A stretch of DNA of 64,000 nucleotides, taken from Pyxidicoccus sp. MSG2. Lineage in GTDB: Bacteria > Myxococcota > Myxococcia > Myxococcales > Myxococcaceae. Position 1 is the first letter of the stretch, and every line of letters begins with the position of its first letter. Location of the stretch: positions 744,001 to 808,000 of the forward strand of contig NZ_JAPNKC010000001.1 of the NCBI RefSeq assembly GCF_026626705.1, in the 5' to 3' direction. Below are positions 49,171-60,799 of the stretch, in pieces. The notes beneath the pieces are model-generated. The model did not search any database, had not been told where the DNA came from, and worked only from the letters and a program-made list of their open reading frames with translations. The translations under genes and the position numbers were made by a program.

Positions 49171-50760
49171 TCAGCCGGGCCGGTAGACGCGGTAGTCCAG
49201 CTCCGGGAAGAGGTTGTCGCGGCCCTCCACCTGGGTGAGCCAACCCTCGTCGATGGTGTCGGCGCGCAGCTCGTCGTGAAGGCGCTGGAAGCGGAGGACG
49301 TGCTCGCGCGTGCGGCGCCGGGCGTACTCCACCATGGTGCCCGTCTTCATGATGAAGGCCCAGTCGGAGGACTGGGCGAGCAGCAGCTCACGCGCGGCCT
49401 GGTTGAGCGCACGGCGCTTCAGGGAGTCGGCGTCGGGGAAGTCGCGGGCCAGCTCCACCATCTGCTTCGCGCAGTGGTGCAGGTGGCGGTAGATCCAATC
49501 ATTGGCCCCGTCGAGCCACATGTTCGCGTAGCCGCCCGCGCCCCACGAGGACAGCGGCGGCGTGGCCACCTGGTTCTCCGGGTTCTCCCGCAGGTCGTCC
49601 GAGGGCGTCACCAGGCGGAAGGTCTTCTGGTCATACGCGGCCTTGCGGATGAGGAAGTCGAGGAACATGGGCCCCTCGAACCACCAGTGGCCGAACAGCT
49701 CCGCATCGTAGGGAGCCACGACGACGGGCTTGCGTCCCCCCAGGCGTGAGGCGAGGTGCTCTATCTGCCGCTCGCGATTGAAGAGGAAGTTGCCGGCGTG
49801 GATGGCGGCGCGCTCGCGGGCGGCGGCCGGGTTGTAGGGCTGCTTGTCGTGCGTCTTGCCGGTGATGCGGAAGTACTTGAAGCCGGTGTTCTTGCGGTCG
49901 CCGGTGGGCTGGATGAACGGGCGGATGTAGTCCAGGTCCAGGTCCCAGCCGATGTCCCGGTAGAACTCGCGGTAGTCCCCGTCACCGGGATAGCCGAACT
50001 CGGTGCTCCACACCTGCTGGCTGCTCTCCGGGTCTCTCGCATATGCGGCCACGCCCGTTTCCGTGAAGATGGGCGCATAGGGTCCGTGCAGCGGGCGCGG
50101 TGTGGCGTCCGTGAGGCCGTGCGTGTCCACGAAGAAGTAGCGGATGCGCTCGTTGGCCAGCACGCGCTCCAGCCCGGGGTAGTAGCCGCACTCGGCCAGC
50201 CAGATGCCCGCCGGGTCTCTCCCGAAGTTCTGCCGGTAGTGGTTGGCGGCCACCGTCACCTGTGCGCGCACGGCCTCGGGCACCTGCTGCATGAGCGGCA
50301 GGAAGCCGTGCGTGGCGTTGCAGGTGATGATGTCCAGGAAACCCGCGTCCTGGAGGCGGCGGAAGGCGGTGACGAGCTCGCGCTTGTAGCGGTCGTGGAA
50401 GGCGCGGCGCAGCGACTCGAAATGGTCGCGGTGGAAGCGGGCCAGCGGGCCGAAGGTGGCGTCGTTCCGGGTGCGGTGGACCTCGCGCGCGCCCAGCTCG
50501 CAGAGTTGGTCCAGCCGGCGCGCGTAGCGCGACATGAGCAGCTCGTCCCGCAGCATGGCGACGAGCGTGGGGGACAGCGTCATCGTCAGACGGAAGGGGA
50601 CGCCGTCCTCGGCCAGCTTGTCGAAGACGAGGAGCAGCGGGAGGTACGTCTCGGAGATGGCTTCGTAGAGCCAGTCCTCCTCGAGGAAATCCTCGTGCTC
50701 GGGGTGTCGGACGAAGGGAAGGTGCGCGTGGAGGACCAGCGCGAGAGAGCCCAGGCTCAT
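49171..50760 (-). CDS. GH57-type 1,4-alpha-glucan branching enzyme
   Basis: A 529-residue member of glycoside hydrolase family 57 (with DUF1957 C-terminal part), of the alpha-glucan branching type. Conserved regions: HAHLPFVRHP (region 1), the nucleophile E190 in LAECGYYPG, and APYDAELFGHWWFEGP with the acid/base Asp. It should introduce alpha-1,6 branches into glycogen-like storage glucan in the cytosol. It lies 26 bp downstream of the DUF4912 gene, an association I remember as recurrent for GH57 genes in other genomes. Its start was placed at the ATG before MSLGSLALVLHAHLPF. Confidence 0.9.
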   Translation of the reverse strand: MSLGSLALVLHAHLPFVRHPEHEDFLEEDWLYEAISETYLPLLLVFDKLAEDGVPFRLTMTLSPTLVAMLRDELLMSRYARRLDQLCELGAREVHRTRNDATFGPLARFHRDHFESLRRAFHDRYKRELVTAFRRLQDAGFLDIITCNATHGFLPLMQQVPEAVRAQVTVAANHYRQNFGRDPAGIWLAECGYYPGLERVLANERIRYFFVDTHGLTDATPRPLHGPYAPIFTETGVAAYARDPESSQQVWSTEFGYPGDGDYREFYRDIGWDLDLDYIRPFIQPTGDRKNTGFKYFRITGKTHDKQPYNPAAARERAAIHAGNFLFNRERQIEHLASRLGGRKPVVVAPYDAELFGHWWFEGPMFLDFLIRKAAYDQKTFRLVTPSDDLRENPENQVATPPLSSWGAGGYANMWLDGANDWIYRHLHHCAKQMVELARDFPDADSLKRRALNQAARELLLAQSSDWAFIMKTGTMVEYARRRTREHVLRFQRLHDELRADTIDEGWLTQVEGRDNLFPELDYRVYRPG

Positions 50761-50785
50761 AAGCGTTCGAAGTGTCCGTGCGGGT

Positions 50786-52795
50786 TCACGAGCGGCCGCT
50801 GCCCGAAGGCGGCTTCCGGGGAAGAGGCTCCTCCGGGGAACCCGGAGGACGCTGCGCGGATTCGGTGGGGCGCGGCTCCGATGCACCTGACGGACGGGCT
50901 ACGTGTTCCAGGTAGCGCATGTCGGAAGCACCCGGTGCGCGTGGAGGAGAGTCCAAGTAGCGCATGTCGGAAGCGCCCGGCGCACGCGGAGGAGATTCGA
51001 GGTAGCGCATGTCCGAGGCCCCCGGCGCACGGCCCGGTGACTCCAGGTAGCGCATGTCCGAAGCACCCGGCGCACGGCCCACCTCGAGGTATTGATGAGG
51101 CCGGGCACCACCGGCTGGCTGAGAGCCCCCCAGATAGCGCTGGTCGGAAGCCCCGGGCGCACGGCCCGGTGACTCCAGGTAGCGCATGTCCGAAGCACCC
51201 GGCGCGCGCCCCACGTCGAGGTACTGACGCTCGCGCGGCTGCGTACGGCCCTCCAGATAGCGTTGCTCCGATGCCCCCGGAGCCCGACCCGGCGCCTCCA
51301 GATACCGCTGGTCCGACGCTCCCGGCGCGCGCTCCGTGGACTCCACGTAGCGCATGTCCGAAGCACCCGGGACGCGCTCCCGAGCCTCCATGTAACGCAC
51401 GTCCGAGGCCCCCGGCGCTCGCGGTGGCGCTTCGAGATGGGACTCGGGCTGCTCGGCGGAAACGGTCCGCTCACGGTGCGACTCGGGGATGTCCCGCACG
51501 CCTCCGCTGCCCGGCAGATTCACACGGCGCCAGGTGATGTACTCGCGCTCCTCGGCCTCCTGCGCCCGGGTGCGCACCGGCGGCACCACCTCCGGCAGGG
51601 GCTGCGGCTCGGGCATGCGCTGAGGCACGCGGAGGAAACGAATCGAAGTGTCCGTGGACGTGCCGCTGGGCGGTAACGCAACCCGGCTGCTGGAGTGACC
51701 GATACGGCGACTGCGGCCATCCCTTCCGATGAAGTGCGCCTCCACACGGTAGTGCCGGCCCGGCTCCAGGCCGTGGATGTAGAAGCTCCGGGACTCGAGC
51801 GCGCAGTCCAGCTCGCGCGCCATCTTCTCCCCGTCGAACACGCGCAGCACGGCACGCGGAGCATCCAGCCCCTGCAGCGCCCGGGCCCGAGCGGCCGTAC
51901 TGAAGTCCCACGAGACGAAGAGCGTCTGCGGATCCCTCGGCAGCAGCAACGCGCCGTCGTCCTCGTAGCCCGCTGGCAACTCGCCCAGCCCCTCGTCGTC
52001 CTCCGGTGAAGGCGGCGGGTGAGACGACGCGTCCACCAGATGGTGCCGGCGTGCCTCGTCCGGCCCCATGACGCGCGCCACGAAGAAGCCTTCGAGCACC
52101 GGTTCCGCGTCGTGCTGCGCGGGAGGAGGCGGCGGCGCAACGGGCGCGGCGGCGGGGACTTCAGGCGACGACGCCGGGGTGCTTTCAGGAGGAGCCCCCG
52201 TGTCTCCGGAGGACGCGGAGACCGGCGAGGAAGCCGTGGGCGTCGCCGGCTCGCGGGGGACGCGAGGCTTCGGCGGGAACGTCACCACCTGGGCGGGGCG
52301 CGCCGGCGGGGCGTCACCCGGCTTCTCCGACGCTCGCTTGGCCGCCACCCGCTTGGGCGCGGACACGCGGCCCTGGCCCATCTTCTCGGCTGGCTTCGCC
52401 TTCGCCGGAGCACGCTTCTCCTCTACCGCCACCTTCTGCCCCCGCGTGGAGGCCTTGGAAGCGCTCGCCTCCCTGGCAGCCTGCCTGCTCTCCCGGGCGG
52501 GCGCCTTCGGCACCTTCACGCCCCTGGCAGGAGTCTTGGACTCCCGGGCCTTCCTGTCCTTGGGGGACTCCTTGGCCTTCGCGGCCGCGGCCTTCGCGGG
52601 AGCAGGAGCCTTGGTGGCGGAACTTTTGCGCGCCACGGTGATACCCACCAGGCGAGCGAGCTTCGCCAGGGCGGGGACGTACGCGGCGAGCGCCGCGATG
52701 AGCTCCTCCTTCTTCAACTTGCTGTAACCGCTCCCCAGGTGCTTCTGGGCCAGCTCTCTCAGATGGCTGACGGTTACACTCTTGAGGTCGTCCAT
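50786..52795 (-). CDS. DUF4912 protein with Rho-N-like N-terminus and 15-residue tandem repeat
   Basis: A 669-residue cytosolic protein. The N-terminus (LKSVTVSHLRELAQKHLGSG, about residues 4-23) is a SAP/Rho N-terminal nucleic-acid-binding helix pair; then a Lys/Ala/Pro-rich tail (about 55-195) with repeated APAKAAA-type elements; a DUF4912-type domain (about 265-395, with LFVSWDFSTAARARAL, IHGLEPGRHYRVEAHFIGRDG); and finally about ten copies of a 15-residue repeat (RAPGASDMRYLESPG) from about 459 to 630. DUF4912 is of unknown function but often neighbours GH57 genes. A TTG six bases upstream is an alternative start. Confidence 0.82.
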   Translation of the reverse strand: MDDLKSVTVSHLRELAQKHLGSGYSKLKKEELIAALAAYVPALAKLARLVGITVARKSSATKAPAPAKAAAAKAKESPKDRKARESKTPARGVKVPKAPARESRQAAREASASKASTRGQKVAVEEKRAPAKAKPAEKMGQGRVSAPKRVAAKRASEKPGDAPPARPAQVVTFPPKPRVPREPATPTASSPVSASSGDTGAPPESTPASSPEVPAAAPVAPPPPPAQHDAEPVLEGFFVARVMGPDEARRHHLVDASSHPPPSPEDDEGLGELPAGYEDDGALLLPRDPQTLFVSWDFSTAARARALQGLDAPRAVLRVFDGEKMARELDCALESRSFYIHGLEPGRHYRVEAHFIGRDGRSRRIGHSSSRVALPPSGTSTDTSIRFLRVPQRMPEPQPLPEVVPPVRTRAQEAEEREYITWRRVNLPGSGGVRDIPESHRERTVSAEQPESHLEAPPRAPGASDVRYMEARERVPGASDMRYVESTERAPGASDQRYLEAPGRAPGASEQRYLEGRTQPRERQYLDVGRAPGASDMRYLESPGRAPGASDQRYLGGSQPAGGARPHQYLEVGRAPGASDMRYLESPGRAPGASDMRYLESPPRAPGASDMRYLDSPPRAPGASDMRYLEHVARPSGASEPRPTESAQRPPGSPEEPLPRKPPSGSGRS
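50906..51421 (-). repeat. In-frame 45-bp tandem repeat of the DUF4912 gene
   Basis: About ten copies of a 45-bp unit (15 residues: R-A-P-G-A-S-D-M/Q-R-Y-L-E-S-P-G), with two interruptions where a shorter related unit (RERQYLDVG; ARPHQYLEVG) replaces it. The DNA copies are nearly identical over GTAGCGCATGTCCGAAGC-like segments, so recent duplication and gene conversion are likely and copy number could vary between strains. Confidence 0.9.
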
Positions 52796-52926
52796 AGGCA
52801 AGGTCGCCTTTAGGTCGCTGGCAGTGGAGGGTCAACGTGCCAGCATTTCATGTGTTCGTCGCCCGACCCCCCCTCCCCTGCATCGCCCGATGACACCCAG
52901 GATGGGGCCAAGTATCCTGCCCACGC
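52796..52926. promoter_or_regulatory. Divergent intergenic region between DUF4912 and glycosyltransferase genes
   Basis: A 131-bp gap that must hold both outward promoters, so the two repeat-bearing proteins could be co-regulated. I see no obvious consensus -35/-10 pair or operator on either side, only a pyrimidine-rich tract CCCCCCCTCCCC near 52867-52877. Confidence 0.4.
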
Positions 52927-55900
52927 TTGAGCGACCTGCCCAGACTGCTCCTGTGCAGTTTCGACGTCATCCCCGGTCCGTCGGGCTCGTCGCGCCGTGT
53001 CACGGAGTACCTCAAGGCGCTTCCAGACCGCTTCTCCGTGGTGGTGCTGTCGGCGAAGACACCTGACCACTCCCATATCGAGAAGTACCAGGGCGCCCGC
53101 CTGCTGCGGGTGCCGGTAGGCTCGGGCGACCTGGCCTCGCGCATCCAGGCCTTCGAGCGCGCCGTGCGCCGCCAGTTGGAGAGCGAGGAGTACGCGCTCG
53201 CCCACTTCACCGACCCCTTCGGCGGCTATGCGCTGTGCGAGCTGAAGGCGGACTACGGCCACCGGCTCGTCTACGAGGCGCAGACCTTCCCGTCCCAGGA
53301 GCTGCGCTACACGCACCCGCAGACGGAAGGGGACCGGCGCTTCCTCTCCAAGATTCGCAGGCAGGAGCTGTTCTGCCTGATGAACGCGGACCTCATCATC
53401 ACCGGCTCGCAGACGACGCGCTCGTACATCCAGTCGCTCGGGGCGAGCGACGACCTCATCCACGTGGTCCGCGCGCCGGTGGACCTCAAGGCCTACGAGC
53501 CCGAGGCGATGGGCGCGCCGGATGGGCAGCCGCTGCGGCTGATGTACCTGGGCAGCCAGGTGGGGTGGCAGGGCCTGCCCACGCTGCTGCGCGCGGTGGC
53601 GCTCGCGGCCCAACGCGCGGACGTGCGGCTCACCCTGGTGGGCGCGCAGCACGCGGACTGGCAGCCGCACCTGGATGACCTGGTGAAGGAGCTGGGGCTG
53701 AAGGAGCGGGTGGAGTTCCAGGCGCCCGTCCTCCACGACGACGTGGCCAAGGTGCTCGCGCTGGCGGACGTGGGCGTGCTCCCCCTGGACGACGTGGAGC
53801 GCAACCGGCTGCAGGGCGGTCCCCTGGCGAAGGTGTCCGAGTACTGTGCCGCCGGCCGCCCCGTCATCGCCGCGGACCTGCCCGTCACCCGCGAGCTCAT
53901 TCCCCAGAGCGCGGCCCTCTTCTTCCCGCCTGGAGACACGCAGGCCCTCGCGAACCACATCGTCGACCTGGCGCGTGACGTTCCCCGCCGCATGGAGCTG
54001 GGACGCCGGGCGCGCGCGCATGCGGAGCAGGTGCTCGACGCGGGCCTCATCCGCGGCAGGCTCCTGGACCTCTACGACTCGCTCCTGGAGAAGCGGTCGG
54101 CATCGGTGGCGCCCCGGAGCGAGGACGACCTGCCCGCTCCCACCACGGTGACGGGCACGCCCACCAACCGGCTCGCGGCCCTGCTGCCGCCGGAACCGAC
54201 GCCCAGGAAGGAAGCGTCGAAGCCGGAGGCCGCGCAGGCTGGCAGCTCCGAGCCGACGGGCGAGGACGTGCCGCTGGTCATGGGCCAGGTGCTGGACGAG
54301 GGGCTCGACACGCGCCTCATCAAGACGGAGCTGGAGTCGCAGCCCTCCGAGCCTCCCGTGGTGATGGGCCTGCCCCTGCGCGAGAGCTCCGCGAAGGGCA
54401 AGGGAGCTGAGAGCGCCTCGCCCGCCTCCGTCATCGTGGATCCGGCGCTTCCCACTTCGAGCCGTGCGGGCACGGAGTCCGGCGGACCGGTGTCGCTGAG
54501 GTACTCCCCTCCGGGGAAGGCCACGTCGCCCTCGCTCGTGGAGGAGCCGCCCGCGCCGACGCCGACTCCGACGCCCATCGTCCGGGGCTCCAGCACCGCT
54601 GACAGGGAGGAGCCCCCGGCGCCCACGCCTGTCGTGCGCGCTCCGGTCGCCCAGGATGCGGAGGAGCCTCCCTCGCCCACGCCCGTCGTCCGCGCGCCGT
54701 CCAGGGCCGATGCAGAGGAGCCTCCCGCTCCCACACCTATCGTCCGCGCGCCGTCCAGGGCCGATGCAGAGGAGCCTCCCGCTCCCACGCCTATCATCCG
54801 TGCGCCGTCCAGGGTCGAAGCAGAGGAGCCTCCCGCTCCCACGCCTGTCGTCCGCGCCCCCGTGGCGGCGGACCGCGAGGAGCCTTTCTCGCCCCGGGTT
54901 TCTGGCGCGGGCCTTCGTGAGGAGTCCCCGGGTGCTGCCTCCGGCGGCCGCACGCCCGCCACGTCCGACCGCGACGAGCCGCCGGCCCCGACGCCCATCG
55001 TCAAGGTGCCCGCGGCGCTGTTCATGCGTGACGAGGCGTTCGCGCCGTCCTCGGCGGGACGCGACTCCGGCACCGCGAACCGGAAGGACGAGCCGCCAGC
55101 GCCCGGCGGCGCATCACGCTCACTGAGTGGTGGGCGCAGCACGTCGGCCCGCGTGGAGACGCCCTCGCGGCGCATGTCCGCGCTCTCCACGCCGGCCCGA
55201 GGCACCTCGGCCACCGAGTCCGAGCGTGCGCCCTCCGCGCCCCGCTCGGGCTCACCCACCTCCGAGACCGGACTGCCCCCGGTGGTTCGTCCGGGCTCGC
55301 CCACCTCCGAGCCGGGGCTGCCCCCGGTGGTTCGTCCGGGCTCCTCGCCTTCGGAAACCGGGCTGCCCCCAGTGGTCCGCTCGGGCCCGCAGACCTCGGA
55401 GACCGCGCTCCCGCCGGTGCTGCGCTCGGGGCCTCCGACCTCGGAGACCGCGCTCCCGCCGGTGCTGCGCTCGGGCCCGCAGACCTCGGAGCTCGTGATT
55501 CCCCAGGTGCCGCGCTCGGGCTCCGCGTCCCACGACTCGGGACTGCCTCCAATGATTCGCGGAGGCACCCCCTCCTCCGAGGCCGAGCGCCCTCCCCCGG
55601 TGCTGCGGCCGGGCACCGCGCCCTCTGAGTCCGGGCTGCCTCCGATGATCCGCGGAGGCGCCGCCTCCTCCGACGTCGAGCGCCCGCTCCCCGTCCTGCG
55701 CCCCGGTTCCTCGGACGCGGACCGCCTGGCGCCGATCCGTGGAAACACGGCCGGCGCTGATCAGGACCGTGCCCCGCCGATTCGCGGAGGCCTCCCCGCC
55801 GCTGATCAGGACCGCCCCCCGTCCATCCGCGGAGGCACCACCCCCTCTGAGCCGGAGCGCCCGCCCGCGCTGCCACCCCGTGCCACCGCGCCGCCCCCCG

Positions 55901-56457
55901 TCCCCCGCCAGCGGCCGCCCCGGCTGATGGCCGAGGGCCCGCCCCGCCTCGCCCCCGTGGACGTACAGGCCTCGCGCCCGGCGCCCCCATCGCTGAAGGC
56001 CTCCCTCCCCGCGTCCGCCTCCTCCGAGGACGAACCCGAGGAAATCTCCCCGGACGAAGCCCAGTCCATCGACGACGGCTCCGACACCTCTCCGACTCCC
56101 GCGCACTCGCGCCCACGTCTCGACGAGCCGGACGAGATCAGCAGCGACGAAGTGGAGGAAGCCGAGGTCTCCGTGGCCAACGGCGCCCGCCTGCTCGAGG
56201 ACGCGGAGCTGCACGAGGTGGAGGCCGAGCCCGCGTCGGAACCCGAGGACGAGGGCGCCGCGCCGGAGCCCGTCCCCTCGGCACTCAACCCGTGGTTCGC
56301 CCAGCTCGCTCACGGGTACTGTCCGCCGGACGGCATCCGTTTCGACCGCCACACGCCACCGACCACGTTCCCCGGTCGGGACGAGGACACCAGCCCCTCC
56401 CGCGTCCCCCCGGCCGTACGTACCTCCCCGGGCGTCGGTCGCGGCAAGAGCTCGTGA
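52927..56457 (+). CDS. GT4-type glycosyltransferase with about 780-residue disordered repeat tail
   Basis: A 1176-residue protein starting at TTG. Residues 1 to about 390 are a GT-B glycosyltransferase (RLLLCSFDVIPGPSGSS, MYLGSQVGWQGLPTLL, TLVGAQHADW, and the EX7E-like region VERNRLQGGPLAKVSEYCAAGRP). The rest is low-complexity: a Pro/Glu region with six copies of an 18-residue EEPPAPTPIVRAPSRADA-type repeat (about 539-655), a 15-residue SETGLPPVVRPGSPT-type array (about 770-985), acidic stretches, and a conserved-looking C-terminus (NPWFAQLAHGYCPPDG, about 1120). No membrane helix is visible. It could anchor or scaffold the enzyme; such tails may phase-separate. Function of the tail unknown. 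Confidence 0.82.
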   Translation: MSDLPRLLLCSFDVIPGPSGSSRRVTEYLKALPDRFSVVVLSAKTPDHSHIEKYQGARLLRVPVGSGDLASRIQAFERAVRRQLESEEYALAHFTDPFGGYALCELKADYGHRLVYEAQTFPSQELRYTHPQTEGDRRFLSKIRRQELFCLMNADLIITGSQTTRSYIQSLGASDDLIHVVRAPVDLKAYEPEAMGAPDGQPLRLMYLGSQVGWQGLPTLLRAVALAAQRADVRLTLVGAQHADWQPHLDDLVKELGLKERVEFQAPVLHDDVAKVLALADVGVLPLDDVERNRLQGGPLAKVSEYCAAGRPVIAADLPVTRELIPQSAALFFPPGDTQALANHIVDLARDVPRRMELGRRARAHAEQVLDAGLIRGRLLDLYDSLLEKRSASVAPRSEDDLPAPTTVTGTPTNRLAALLPPEPTPRKEASKPEAAQAGSSEPTGEDVPLVMGQVLDEGLDTRLIKTELESQPSEPPVVMGLPLRESSAKGKGAESASPASVIVDPALPTSSRAGTESGGPVSLRYSPPGKATSPSLVEEPPAPTPTPTPIVRGSSTADREEPPAPTPVVRAPVAQDAEEPPSPTPVVRAPSRADAEEPPAPTPIVRAPSRADAEEPPAPTPIIRAPSRVEAEEPPAPTPVVRAPVAADREEPFSPRVSGAGLREESPGAASGGRTPATSDRDEPPAPTPIVKVPAALFMRDEAFAPSSAGRDSGTANRKDEPPAPGGASRSLSGGRSTSARVETPSRRMSALSTPARGTSATESERAPSAPRSGSPTSETGLPPVVRPGSPTSEPGLPPVVRPGSSPSETGLPPVVRSGPQTSETALPPVLRSGPPTSETALPPVLRSGPQTSELVIPQVPRSGSASHDSGLPPMIRGGTPSSEAERPPPVLRPGTAPSESGLPPMIRGGAASSDVERPLPVLRPGSSDADRLAPIRGNTAGADQDRAPPIRGGLPAADQDRPPSIRGGTTPSEPERPPALPPRATAPPPVPRQRPPRLMAEGPPRLAPVDVQASRPAPPSLKASLPASASSEDEPEEISPDEAQSIDDGSDTSPTPAHSRPRLDEPDEISSDEVEEAEVSVANGARLLEDAELHEVEAEPASEPEDEGAAPEPVPSALNPWFAQLAHGYCPPDGIRFDRHTPPTTFPGRDEDTSPSRVPPAVRTSPGVGRGKSS
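54541..54890 (+). repeat. 54-bp in-frame repeat, first tail array of the glycosyltransferase
   Basis: About six copies of an 18-residue unit (E-E-P-P-A-P-T-P-I/V-V-R-A-P plus five variable residues). Two adjacent copies are almost identical at the DNA level (SRADA-EEPPAPTP twice), showing recent duplication. Confidence 0.88.
55241..55880 (+). repeat. 45-bp in-frame repeat, second tail array of the glycosyltransferase
   Basis: About ten to twelve diverging copies of a 15-residue unit (S-E-T-G-L-P-P-V-V-R-P/S-G-S/P-x-T), the last copies degenerate toward an IRGGxxxADQDR-type unit. It is distinct from the first array and from the DUF4912 repeat, although that one is also 15 residues long. Confidence 0.87.
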
Positions 56458-56557
56458 AGCAGCCAACCGAGCGCCACCCATAAACTTTCCAAGGCTTGCA
56501 CGCGCCCGATAGGATGCTGCGGTTTTCACTGCACTTTTTCCGGGTCAGAAGGGCTTC

Positions 56558-59500
56558 ATGGAGCGTCGGGTCCTCATCGTCGAAAGCCAGAACGAGTTCG
56601 CCCTCAGCATGGCCACCGTGCTCAAGAGCGCGGGGTATCAGACGGCCATGGCGGCGACTGCGTCTGACGCGCAGCGTGAGCTGGAAAAGCGTCGGCCGGA
56701 TCTGGTCGTCCTGCGCGCCGAGCTGCCGGATCAGTCCGGCTTCGTTCTCTGTGGGCAGATCAAGAAGGGCAAGTGGGGACAGAACCTCAAGGTCCTCCTG
56801 CTCTCCTCCGACACGGGAGTGGATGGCCTGACGCAGCACCGGCAGACGCCGGGCGCCGCGGACGGCTACCTCGTCATCCCCTTCGAGATGGGAGAGCTCG
56901 CGTCCATGAGCTACGGCATCATCCCGCCGGGCACGGACGAATCGGACGCCTCGCTCGACGCGGCGCTCAACGGCACGCCCCGTGAGGCGCCGCCGCCCAT
57001 GCCGCCCCCCATGCGCACCAGCGCCGGTGGCCCGCCCAAGCTGCCCAAGCGCGAGCGCCGCAGCGCGATGACGGACGAGGACCGCGCCTTCCTCGACCGT
57101 GCCTTCCAGTCCATCGCCGACCGCAAGGCGGAGCTGCTCGCCGAGTCCCGCCAGCTCAAGCGCCCGCCCCCGCGGCGCGAGCTGATGGGCACGCCGGAAG
57201 GCAAGATTCAAATCCTCCGCGACGAGCTGAAGACGCGCGAGGCCCAGCTCGCCCGCCTCTCCGAAATCTGGAGCGTGCGCGAGCGCGAGCTCCTCTCCGG
57301 CGAGGACCGGCTCCACGAGAAGGACGTGGAGCTGCAAGGGCTGAAGATGCAGGTGGACGACCTGCTCCGCCGCTTCAACGAGGCCCAGCAGGGCATGCTC
57401 CAGAAGGAGCGCGAGCACGGCGCCGCCGTGGACGACCTGCTCCTCCAGAAGTTCTCCTCGGAGAAGGACCTCATCGAGGTCGTGGCCTCCAAGGAGAAGG
57501 ACATCAACGTCCTTCGCAAGGAGGTCCACAACCGCGAGGACGAGCTGGAGCGCCGCGTCTCCGAGCTGGAGAACCTCCGCGGCGAGTACGACAAGCTGGA
57601 GAAGCACCTCGGCGTCGTCACGCTGGAGTTCGAGGTCAAGGAGCAGAAGCTCCAGGACTCCCTCCGCGCCCACGAGGCGGAAGTCGCCCGCCTGGGCAAG
57701 CGCGGTGACGACTTCGAGGCCGAGCTGGCCCGCACCGTCAGCGAGCGCGACGCGCGCTACGCAGAGCTGAGCGGAGAGATTCAGGCGCTCCAGGACCGGC
57801 TCCAGGAGACGGAGCAGGAGCGCGACAGCACCGTCCGCGCCCTGGAGGCGCGCGCCACCGCCGCCGAGGAGCACGGCACCCAGGCGGACGCCGAAATCGT
57901 CCGGCTCAACGCCGAGCGCGAGGCCCTGGAGGCCCGCCTCACGCAGCAGGTGGCCGACCTGGAAGGCGACCTCGCGCGCACCACCAGCGAGCGTGACCAG
58001 CTCCGGCTGGACAAGGACGCCCAGGAGACCGAGCTCACCCAGCGCGTCGAGGACCGCGACGCGAAGATTGGCACCCTCGAGCGCGAGCTGTCGGAGACCA
58101 TCGCCCGCAACGAGCAGAGCGAGGCGGAGCTCAACGCCAACATCCAGCAGCACCTGGAGCGCATCGGCGAGCTGGAGGGCGAGGTCGAGTCCGTCAAGAC
58201 GCACCTGGCGGACCGCGAGGCGGAGCTCTCCGCCGAGCTGCAGGCCCTGCAGCAGGCCAGGGACGAGCTGGAGACGGACCTCACCGACCGCCTCCAGGCG
58301 CTCAACCAGGCCAAGGACGCCCTGGAGCAGGACCTCTCCCAGCAGTTGGAGGAGCTGCGCTCCGCCAAGGCCGAGCTGGAGGCGGACCTCACCGGCCAGA
58401 TCCAGGCGCTCACCCAGCAGCTCGAGCAGTCGCAGAACACGGGCGAGCAGCTCACCGCGCGCGTGGCATCGCTGGAGGACACCGTCGCCCAGCGCGAGGC
58501 CACCATCGAGGGCCTGCAAGGCGACGTGGCGACGCGCGACGAGCGCATCGCCGAGCTGAGCGGCAACCTGGAGGCCACGAGCCAGACGCTCGCGCAGACG
58601 CAGGACACGCTGTCGCGCACGGAGGCCACCCTCTCCGAGACGCAGGGCACGCTGGCCCGCACCGAGGAGACGCTCTCCGAGACGCGCGGCGAGCTGGAGG
58701 CCACCTCCCAGACGCTGGCGGACACGCAGGCACGCCTCTCCCAGACGGAAGAGGCCCTGTCCAACACCCGCGGCGAGCTGGAGGCCACCAGCCAGACGCT
58801 CGCGCAGACGCAGGACACCCTCTCCTCCACGGAAGCGACGCTCGCGGACACGCAGGCGCGGCTGGCCCAGACGGAGGGCTCGCTGGCGGAGACGCGCGGC
58901 GAGCTGGAGGCCACCAGCCAGACGCTGACGCAGACGCAGTCCGCGCTGGAGGACACGCGCGAGCAGCTCGCCACCACCACCGGCCAGCGCGACGCGCTCC
59001 AGGCCGAGCTGGAGGAGACGCGCGGCGCGCTCCAGGAGACGAACGACACCCTGGCCCGCACCACCCGCGAGCGCGACCAGCGCACCGCGGAGCTGCAGGC
59101 CCTGGGCGTGGCGAAGGACGCGCTGGAGGACCAGCTCACCGGCCAGATTGGCCAGCTGCGCGGCGAGCTGTCCGAGACGCAGGGCCACTACGAGGCCGAG
59201 CGCGCCGCCCACGAGAAGCTGGCCGCCGAGACGAGCGCGCACATCCAGGACCTCACGGGCGAGCGCGACGGGCTTCGCCAGGAGCTGGAGGCCACCAGCC
59301 AGACGCTGGAGCAGACGCAGGGCCAGCTCGCCTCCACCCGCGATGCGCTGGGCAAGGAGCAGCAGGCCCACACCGCCACGCGGCAGGCCGCGGCCAGCGC
59401 CCAGTCCGCGCTGGAGTCGCAGCTCAACGAGGCGCGCAACCAGGGCGAGGACCTGGGCGAGCAGCTCACGCTCACCAAGCATGAGCTGGGCGCCGCCGTC

Positions 59501-60799
59501 GCCGAGGTGACGCGGCTGTCCTCGCAGCTGGCACAGGTGGAGGATGCGCGCGGCACCCTCGAGGAGCGGCTGCACGCGCTCACCGAGGAGTCGCAGCGCA
59601 AGGAGGAGCTGCTCCAGAACGACCTGGCCAGCAAGGGCAAGGAGCTGTCCGACACGCTCCGCAAGCTCACCCAGGTGACGCAGGAGAAGATGCGTCAGGC
59701 CGAGGTGCTCAACCGCGAGGTGGCCACCCGGACCGAGCAGCTCAAGGCGATGGAGGCAAAGCTCCAGACGCAGGCCGCCGAGTCGAAGCGTCAGGCCGAC
59801 GCGCTCGGCCAGCAGATGGCCGGCCTCAACAACCAGCTGGAGCTGGGCAAGAAGGCCCTCGCCGACCGCGAGGAGCAGCTGCGCGCCGCGGGCACCGCCC
59901 ACCAGAAGCTGACCGCCGAGCGCAACGAGCTGACCACCCGCCTCCAGCAGTCCGAGGCGAAGCTCCAGCAGCAGGCCCAGCAGGCGGCCCAGGAGCGCAC
60001 AGAGGCGAAGAAGTCGGCGGACGACCTGGCCGCGAAGCTGGCCAAGGCCGAGCAGCGCGTCGCCCAGCTCACCCAGGAGGCCCAGGCCCGCACCGCCGAT
60101 GCGGAGGCGAAGGCCAAGGACCTGCAGGGGCAGCTCGCCACGCGCACGAAGAAGATCCAGGACCTGGAGCTGGCGGTGGAGAACGCGCAGGGCGCCAAGG
60201 CCCGCGTGGAGAAGGAGCTCAACGCCCGCGTGGCCACCGCCGAGGGCAAGGCCAACGAGGCCGCGGCCCGGCTCGCCACCGCGCAGAAGGAGCGCAAGGA
60301 CCTGGAGACGCGGCAGCTCAAGGAGCTGGAGGACCTCTCCGCGAAGCAGAAGGCGGAGCTGGAGCGCCGCGAGGCCATCAAGACCCAGGAAGTGGCCCGC
60401 CTGCAGCAGTCCGTGCAGGAGAAGAGCAAGGCCCTCAAGGTCGCCGAGCTGGAGCTGGCCCGCTTCAAGAGCAAGGCTCCCGCCGCCGCCGCCACCCCGG
60501 CCCCCGCGAAGCCCGCCGCGGCGAAGGCGGCCACCGCCCCCGCCCCCGTGGAGGAGGAGGACCTGGCCGTGAGGACGCAGCTCAACCAGGTCATCCCGGC
60601 CGCCGCGCCCGCCGCGGCGAAGCCCGCCGCCGCGAAGGCCCCGGCGAAGCCCGCCGCGAAGAAGGCCGCGGCCCCCGCCCCGGCCCCTGTCGTCGAGGAG
60701 TCCGAGCCCACCGACCGCACCGTGATGATCCAGATTCCCGCCGGCGTCGCGAAGGAAGACGACGACTGGACGGCCCTGGTCGACGAGCTCGACAAGTAG
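56558..60799 (+). CDS. aglZ: AglZ-like gliding-motility protein (pseudo-receiver plus long coiled coil)
   Basis: A 1413-residue protein with an N-terminal receiver-like domain (residues 1 to about 120) that lacks the key phosphorylation residues: Asp is replaced by R53 (VVLRAELPD), an acid-pocket Asp by E9/S10, and the switch Lys by I107 (GYLVIPFE). The rest, about 190-1290, is an uninterrupted coiled coil with clear heptads, and a Pro/Ala-rich tail and acidic end (DDDWTALVDELDK). This matches M. xanthus AglZ (about 1,395 residues), which interacts with MglA and FrzCD in A-motility; I infer the identity from architecture. The heptad repeats at 58562-58975 are unusually regular. AAGGG precedes the ATG. 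Confidence 0.85.
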   Translation: MERRVLIVESQNEFALSMATVLKSAGYQTAMAATASDAQRELEKRRPDLVVLRAELPDQSGFVLCGQIKKGKWGQNLKVLLLSSDTGVDGLTQHRQTPGAADGYLVIPFEMGELASMSYGIIPPGTDESDASLDAALNGTPREAPPPMPPPMRTSAGGPPKLPKRERRSAMTDEDRAFLDRAFQSIADRKAELLAESRQLKRPPPRRELMGTPEGKIQILRDELKTREAQLARLSEIWSVRERELLSGEDRLHEKDVELQGLKMQVDDLLRRFNEAQQGMLQKEREHGAAVDDLLLQKFSSEKDLIEVVASKEKDINVLRKEVHNREDELERRVSELENLRGEYDKLEKHLGVVTLEFEVKEQKLQDSLRAHEAEVARLGKRGDDFEAELARTVSERDARYAELSGEIQALQDRLQETEQERDSTVRALEARATAAEEHGTQADAEIVRLNAEREALEARLTQQVADLEGDLARTTSERDQLRLDKDAQETELTQRVEDRDAKIGTLERELSETIARNEQSEAELNANIQQHLERIGELEGEVESVKTHLADREAELSAELQALQQARDELETDLTDRLQALNQAKDALEQDLSQQLEELRSAKAELEADLTGQIQALTQQLEQSQNTGEQLTARVASLEDTVAQREATIEGLQGDVATRDERIAELSGNLEATSQTLAQTQDTLSRTEATLSETQGTLARTEETLSETRGELEATSQTLADTQARLSQTEEALSNTRGELEATSQTLAQTQDTLSSTEATLADTQARLAQTEGSLAETRGELEATSQTLTQTQSALEDTREQLATTTGQRDALQAELEETRGALQETNDTLARTTRERDQRTAELQALGVAKDALEDQLTGQIGQLRGELSETQGHYEAERAAHEKLAAETSAHIQDLTGERDGLRQELEATSQTLEQTQGQLASTRDALGKEQQAHTATRQAAASAQSALESQLNEARNQGEDLGEQLTLTKHELGAAVAEVTRLSSQLAQVEDARGTLEERLHALTEESQRKEELLQNDLASKGKELSDTLRKLTQVTQEKMRQAEVLNREVATRTEQLKAMEAKLQTQAAESKRQADALGQQMAGLNNQLELGKKALADREEQLRAAGTAHQKLTAERNELTTRLQQSEAKLQQQAQQAAQERTEAKKSADDLAAKLAKAEQRVAQLTQEAQARTADAEAKAKDLQGQLATRTKKIQDLELAVENAQGAKARVEKELNARVATAEGKANEAAARLATAQKERKDLETRQLKELEDLSAKQKAELERREAIKTQEVARLQQSVQEKSKALKVAELELARFKSKAPAAAATPAPAKPAAAKAATAPAPVEEEDLAVRTQLNQVIPAAAPAAAKPAAAKAPAKPAAKKAAAPAPAPVVEESEPTDRTVMIQIPAGVAKEDDDWTALVDELDK
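58562..58975 (+). repeat. Near-perfect heptad repeat block within aglZ
   Basis: Roughly twenty consecutive heptads of the type GELEATS-QTLAQTQ-DTLSSTE, grouped in recurring four- or six-heptad blocks that begin GELEATS (or GNLEATS). The DNA is nearly repetitive, so rod length could change by slippage; it lies in the middle of the coiled coil. Confidence 0.82.

Follow-up and report, generated by a model that had tools for sequence, protein, structure and literature searches.

In the genome of Pyxidicoccus sp. MSG2, a glycosyltransferase (GT) gene located beside aglZ encodes an enzyme domain followed by a long disordered tail, which varies in length and repeats among relatives and ends in a conserved motif. 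The gene is an open reading frame (ORF) of 1176 amino acids (aa) with a TTG start, at positions 52927-56457 (+) of the window (i.e. the whole stretch of 64,000 nucleotides that was analysed, part of a genome of 13.3 Mb); among named relatives, the closest found was Pyxidicoccus caerfyrddinensis (98% GT identity). Sequence comparison showed this architecture, the free drift of tail length and repeats, strong purifying selection on the end motif and a fixed adjacency to aglZ. The best overall explanation, to which we give an even chance, is an enzyme joined by a variable disordered tether to a conserved docking peptide. For the end motif taken by itself, a role as docking peptide is predicted with greater assurance and appears probable.

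Disordered tail and C-terminal motif

The GT4-type GT-B glycosyltransferase domain occupied residues 1-391 (52927..54099, +; Pfam, AlphaFold2 and Foldseek) and was modelled as a high-confidence fold (AlphaFold2 with 42 orthologues: predicted local distance difference test (pLDDT) mostly 80-98). The remaining 785 residues constituted the tail: nearly all of residues 392-1176 fell below pLDDT 50, no Pfam match was obtained for the tail even at E<=1, and residues 395-1118 contained 19.5% proline and 14% Asp+Glu. The initial annotation, made from the letters alone, had described a GT-B enzyme of about 390 residues with a disordered, proline/acid-rich tail of about 780 residues, two tandem arrays and a distinct C-terminal segment; this description was borne out in full, and the C-terminal segment proved to be the key feature.

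Both arrays were detected with Tandem Repeats Finder (TRF): an 18-residue array of the EEPPAPTPIVRAPSRADA type at 54607..54857 (+; 54-bp period, 4.6 copies) and a 15-residue array of the SGPQTSETALPPVLR type at 55247..55491 (+; 45-bp period, 5.4 copies), with degenerate copies to ~55868. The ratios of non-synonymous to synonymous differences (pN/pS) were 0.58 and 0.79, respectively, rough values given the uncertain alignment inside arrays. The 15-mer array was multicopy only in the clade of the window (the window, L031, L063 and L064), with a trace in L033, and other clades carried unrelated arrays (e.g. ERPSxR or SSATPVVKA). The earlier proposal that repeat number alters a glycan phenotype finds no support, given this restricted distribution and the weak constraint on both arrays. 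Judged from the sequences compared, the tail repeats turn over and the tail end does not.

In the genome set (one genome per species), tail length after residue 391 ranged from 184 to 1428 residues (median 634; 58 motif-ending proteins), and tail composition was conserved across relatives despite this drift. The coefficient of variation (CV) of length was 0.35 for the GT tail, 0.32 for the disordered part of the DUF4912 protein encoded by a neighbouring gene and 0.04 for AglZ (n = 16 AglZ proteins). Because the disordered part of the DUF4912 protein varies about equally, length variation is nothing unusual here and does not by itself indicate function; no co-variation was seen between tail length and the DUF4912 protein (rho -0.27, p 0.14; -0.27 and 0.01 for two measures). 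Many draft contigs (L035, L036, L038, L040, L042, L043 and L045-L048) ended inside the GT tail, as expected if repeats break short-read assemblies, and L036 contained a false early stop near its contig end. The initial annotation had made tail function depend on a tail length conserved in close relatives: length was indeed unconserved, but the end of the tail was conserved, so length was the wrong test.

Column conservation revealed short stretches inside the tail, all on the + strand: TGTPTNRLA just past the GT domain (residues 409-417, 54151..54177), two P-x-V-M-G-x-x-L motifs (residues 449-487, 54271..54387; pN/pS 0.39 for residues 446-487), a proline-rich stretch ALPPRATAPPPVPRQRPPRL (residues 978-1000, 55858..55926; pN/pS 0.27) and two acidic motifs, DEPEEISPDEA and EPDEISSDEVEEAE (residues 1035-1082, 56029..56172; pN/pS 0.42 for residues 1033-1082). 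The four short internal islands had pN/pS values of 0.27-0.50.

The proposed docking motif, LNPWFAQLAHGYCPPDGIRFDRHTPPTTFPGRD, spans residues 1120-1152 (56284..56382, +) and was singled out by its pN/pS, its position pattern and a model helix. Across relatives its consensus was LNPWFAQLAHGYCPPEGxxFxRHTPPTtFPGRD (~33 residues), with the core W-F/L-x-Q-L-x-H-G-Y-C-P-P. Its pN/pS of 0.089 was the lowest of nine regions, the GT domains giving 0.109 (N-terminal) and 0.318 (Nei-Gojobori style, 29 relatives), and the mean majority fraction was 0.87 for the GT domain, 0.42 for the tail and 0.91 for the motif (35 aligned Myxococcaceae proteins). Of the 78 proteins with an in-frame stop, 58 had the pattern W-h-x-x-h-x-x-G-Y/F-x-P in their last 75 residues; it occurred at no other place in these proteins (65,167 residues). 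Within Myxococcaceae, every intact tail-bearing orthologue had the end motif; reduced forms were present in other families next to an AglZ-like gene: SDEWLGHIVFGYAPF (L082), SDEWLSHVLLGYAPF (L090), SDEWLGHVLLGYAPF (L091) and PDAWYHSLVLGFAPL (L086). The reading frame is genuine, since orthologues of many genera shared both the GT frame and the C-terminal motif; the concentration of end-motif variation at synonymous sites was a further sign of this.

AlphaFold2 placed a single short helix in the motif of the window protein (residues 1122-1128), away from the GT domain. The model of a 575-aa orthologue had two low-confidence helices, at 505-511 and, within the motif, at 522-529; the remaining tail was disordered. 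Docking of the motif on its own GT domain was unsupported in both models. The motif was also considered as a tag shared with other proteins, and this was rejected: a motif profile retrieved none at E<0.02 in six genomes (next matches E 0.027 or worse). In sequence and in models, the motif bears the marks of a peptide that would fold on binding a partner.

One genome, G132, gave no GT match genome-wide at E<=1e-6 and retained the GH57, DUF4912 and aglZ genes. Between DUF4912 and aglZ it carried a 107-aa ORF (L137:3309-3632, -) with an acidic stretch and the motif core LEPWLAQLLQGYCP (profile E 4.6e-5, positions 1-15), preceded by a promoter-like sequence comparable to that of the GT gene. The locus reads as a natural enzyme deletion that keeps the docking end, or as a decaying gene.

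Linkage to aglZ

GT matches at E<=1e-40 were obtained in 96/145 genomes of the sampled order (paralogue-only matches included), and linkage was counted over the 92 genomes whose match was treated as the orthologue. Wherever both genes lay on the same contig (76/76 genomes), the GT gene was directly upstream of an AglZ-type gene, in the same strand and order; the distance from GT start to AglZ start was 1.3-5.6 kb, its spread corresponding to the tail. In 14/92 genomes the two genes were on different contigs (mostly drafts ending inside the tail) and 2/92 had no AglZ-type match. The small genomes G135-G137 (2.1-2.7 Mb; L131) carried a diverged tail-less GT beside an AglZ-type gene, and the GC content at third codon positions was ~0.5 in L131. 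In other Myxococcota families, GT homologues had different tails, no motif and no aglZ neighbour in the sequence read, with the exception of one weak receiver match in L155. In L145-L149 and L153, from another Myxococcota family, the GT tails contained a recurring FLLGGPPFPV-like motif and there was no aglZ neighbour.

In the window, aglZ (56558..60799, +; 1413 aa) starts 100 bases past the GT stop, a spacing of ~100 bp that recurred in Myxococcus and Corallococcus; it was assigned from its Response_reg match, length and adjacency. It encodes a receiver-like domain (Response_reg at residues 5-115) and a long coiled coil (matches to coiled-coil models). The product had at first been taken for FrzS, an identification that was rejected: identity to the FrzS receiver was 29%, and the genome has its own FrzS orthologue elsewhere. 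The solved FrzS receiver was the best Protein Data Bank match of the neighbour, but at E 1.6e-13, and a search with the FrzS receiver sequence located the true FrzS, with an open frame of 611 aa, at G000:C1:11197728 (89% match). In M. xanthus the AglZ coiled coil has 1076 residues, versus 235 in FrzS (PMC4546325). The neighbour was therefore taken as AglZ, by elimination, because its length fits and the true FrzS lies elsewhere. An exopolysaccharide/pilus account built on the FrzS identity was dropped once the neighbour proved to be AglZ, and MXAN_4148, an M. xanthus locus tag chosen on the assumption of frzS linkage, yielded no papers and was irrelevant.

AglZ and FrzS are paralogues, and the gliding machinery is believed to have co-opted AglZ (PMC4546325), which has served as a myxobacterial focal adhesion marker since 2007 (PMC12288465). 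The gene beside the GT thus belongs to the AglZ/FrzS pair of pseudo-receiver coiled-coil proteins (as AglZ, by length and orthology), and the GT lies next to it without belonging to this pair. In the open-access literature searched, no paper connecting AglZ with a glycosyltransferase was found, and AglZ and MXAN_2990/2992 did not occur together in any of the papers listed.

A promoter-like site, ATGACA-17-TATCCT (52890..52918, +), precedes the GT gene, its -10 hexamer ending 8 bases before the TTG start. It was the sole promoter-like match in 52600-56700 (0.1 expected in shuffles), and TATCCT/TATTCT and TGACA elements recurred at this position in most Myxococcaceae orthologues. This arrangement suggests that the GT mRNA is leaderless and starts with TTG across most of the family. 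A TAGGAT element lies in the conserved GT-aglZ spacer, which makes a separate promoter for aglZ probable.

Enzyme domain and other neighbouring genes

GT4-type Pfam matches covered residues 19-364 (PF13692, PF00534, PF13439 and PF13579); PF13692 (4.2e-20), PF00534 (7.4e-15) and PF13439 (3.5e-12) exceeded their curated cut-offs. The GT-B two-domain fold was supported with Foldseek by MshA 3c4q (E 7.5e-21, target template modelling score 0.79). The top matches were MshA 3c4q, 7qsg, 6kih and HepE 4xsu, with GlgM and an archaeal glycogen synthase also among them: these were retaining GT4 enzymes and their relatives, without a clear favourite, so the sugar was not predicted. MshA, HepE, PimB' and Tll1590 share the GT-B fold of the window enzyme (Foldseek, Pfam); the solved GT4 examples stop at the GT domain, whereas the window GT adds the disordered tail and the end motif.

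The Arg/Lys residues that contact the donor phosphate in PimB' and 6kih were replaced by Ser210/Gln215 in the window GT and in many subfamily relatives, and the EX7E motif had Gly at the first Glu position, Glu305 being retained. A pseudoenzyme was considered from the absent donor Arg/Lys. This was weakened by the WQG form, common to most GT homologues and to one paralogue; because the paralogue is of the same WQG type, the donor-residue change looks like a subfamily trait and not a proof of inactivity. We read the protein as a cytoplasmic GT4-type glycosyltransferase of putative activity. Mean pairwise identity was 0.94 for the N-terminal GT domain versus 0.80 for the donor-binding (C-terminal) domain, the reverse of what is expected of a GT4 enzyme, and a GT4 paralogue from the same 17 genomes was evenly conserved (0.835 and 0.821). 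The unusual conservation of the N domain is consistent with extra contacts made by that domain.

The divergent genes on the other side of the GT belong to the same conserved block. The first (50786..52801, -), conserved beside the GT, encodes a DUF4912 protein whose N-terminus weakly resembles Rho_N (Pfam) and which has 15-residue repeats of its own (TRF); these form a tandem array of the RAPGASDMRYLESP type (45-bp unit, 50907-51422, -). The C-terminal part of this protein matches the GT tail in length variation, and its end is often KPPSGxGRS. Nothing useful was found in the literature on DUF4912. The second gene (49171..50886, -), also conserved beside the GT, encodes a GH57 1,4-alpha-glucan branching enzyme (Pfam BE_C and Glyco_hydro_57; NCBIfam match at E 1e-98, below the curated cut-off). 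A record titled Comamonas sp. KCTC 72670 (L037, BNCN01000003.1) contained a myxobacterial locus with 85.7% GT identity and the full GH57-DUF4912-GT-aglZ order; this record seems to be mislabelled or mixed.

Proposed docking-tether model and its alternatives

In the proposed mechanism, the GT domain would be carried on a tether that is disordered, acidic and rich in proline and can drift freely in length, with an end peptide (~33 residues) that would fold on binding and dock the enzyme to a protein partner. This explanation is preferred because tail length drifts while no other region measured is as constrained as the motif, because the motif recurs neither in the rest of these proteins nor in the six genomes searched, because two models predict a disordered tail with a short motif helix, and because of the unbroken GT-aglZ adjacency, the motif core without a GT in G132 and the outside homologues lacking both the motif and the aglZ neighbour. 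The partner may be AglZ or a further component of the MglA/AglZ focal-adhesion complex, which would deliver the enzyme to the leading pole or to moving adhesion sites; this identification, drawn from gene order, is tentative. AglZ or its complex is the leading candidate because the adjacency is fixed, and the GH57 or DUF4912 product comes next.

The catalytic fold of glycogenin is GT-A/GT8. In glycogenin, the catalytic domain is connected, through a linker that differs in both sequence and length, to a conserved, helical C-terminal peptide of ~34 residues; this peptide binds glycogen synthase, and the length of the linker influences particle size in vitro (PMC9188544). By analogy, both proteins combine a catalytic domain, a variable linker and a conserved C-terminal peptide, partner docking being predicted in the present case. 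Unlike the GT8 domain of glycogenin, the window protein gave only GT4-type (GT-B) matches, and its motif sequence is different; no sequence relation to glycogenin was found, none having been searched for. It is not a glycogenin, because the catalytic family differs. The fullest form of the proposal, in which a peptide on a length-variable leash recruits the GT to AglZ focal adhesion/polarity complexes as a glycogenin-like tether of independent bacterial origin, is rather doubtful.

Several observations weigh against the docking-tether explanation and its assignment to AglZ. The GT and aglZ appear to have separate promoter regions, and the link between them rests on adjacency. The G132 case comes from one draft assembly (910 contigs), in which the ORF matches the motif at only 15/35 positions. 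In G032 (L092) and G136 (L131), a diverged GT beside aglZ lacks both tail and motif, and in G128 aglZ (and GH57) persist although GT and motif are absent; the GT-aglZ coupling is therefore dispensable. The motif and the aglZ adjacency are both limited to one order and are phylogenetically confounded: their association follows phylogeny and is therefore not independent evidence of binding.

The alternative that survives best, although unlikely, is that the tail is a largely neutral appendage of expandable repeats of which the end alone is kept (e.g. as a stability or anti-degradation signal). The weakly constrained arrays, the ordinary character of length drift at this locus (CV 0.32 for the DUF4912 disordered tail vs 0.35) and the tail-less GTs beside aglZ in a few genomes agree with it; however, the internal islands (PxVMG, proline-rich and acidic) are conserved besides the end motif, and there is no intact tail-bearing Myxococcaceae orthologue without the motif.

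An alpha-glucan pathway shared with the GH57 and DUF4912 proteins, one of which the motif would dock as a functional parallel to glycogenin, is more unlikely still. Almost every Myxococcaceae locus with sufficient sequence retains both genes beside the GT, as do L082 and L090 (another family), and GlgM and the archaeal glycogen synthase are among the Foldseek matches; however, MshA, HepE, BshA and WaaG score equally, and the sugar therefore cannot be read from the fold. Moreover, the GT gene is divergent from the GH57 and DUF4912 genes, and these neighbours are independent of the GT: G132 keeps GH57/DUF4912/aglZ without it, and G128 keeps GH57/aglZ. Nor does anything tie the GT to a surface-polysaccharide cluster.

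The motif could instead fold back on its own GT domain and regulate it (through autoinhibition or by supplying a missing active-site element), as its constraint, about equal to that of the N-terminal GT domain, might indicate. We regard this as improbable: motif pLDDT was below or ~50 in the two AlphaFold2 models, G132 has the motif without a GT, and such a contact would be odd given the nearly eight-fold range of tether lengths. Phase separation of the enzyme driven by the tail, or condensates as the initial annotation put it, is very improbable for a sequence that is long, disordered, charged and repeat-bearing but has few aromatics (0-8 per tail in tails of 124-1368 residues, nearly all within the end motif and not regularly spaced as stickers), lineage-specific repeats and no conserved sticker pattern along the tail beyond short islands. 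The earlier interpretation of the tail is supported in part, its condensate and repeat-number components having found no support.

None of the elements (GT4 enzyme, disordered tail, terminal docking motif) is new by itself; their combination at the aglZ locus appears to be new, and was not found described in the open-access literature searched, part of that search having been aimed at FrzS. It offers a clean case in which tether length drifts nearly eight-fold while the terminal motif, with its predicted binding, stays constant, and it corrects the shortcut by which an unconserved tail is taken as an unimportant tail. A natural tether-length series, from 184 to 1428 residues, exists already. 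A GT gene fixed beside aglZ across the family, with a conserved end peptide, is an unexplored candidate component of focal adhesions; if the proposed recruitment is true, local glycosylation or glycan synthesis would be coupled to gliding in myxobacteria.

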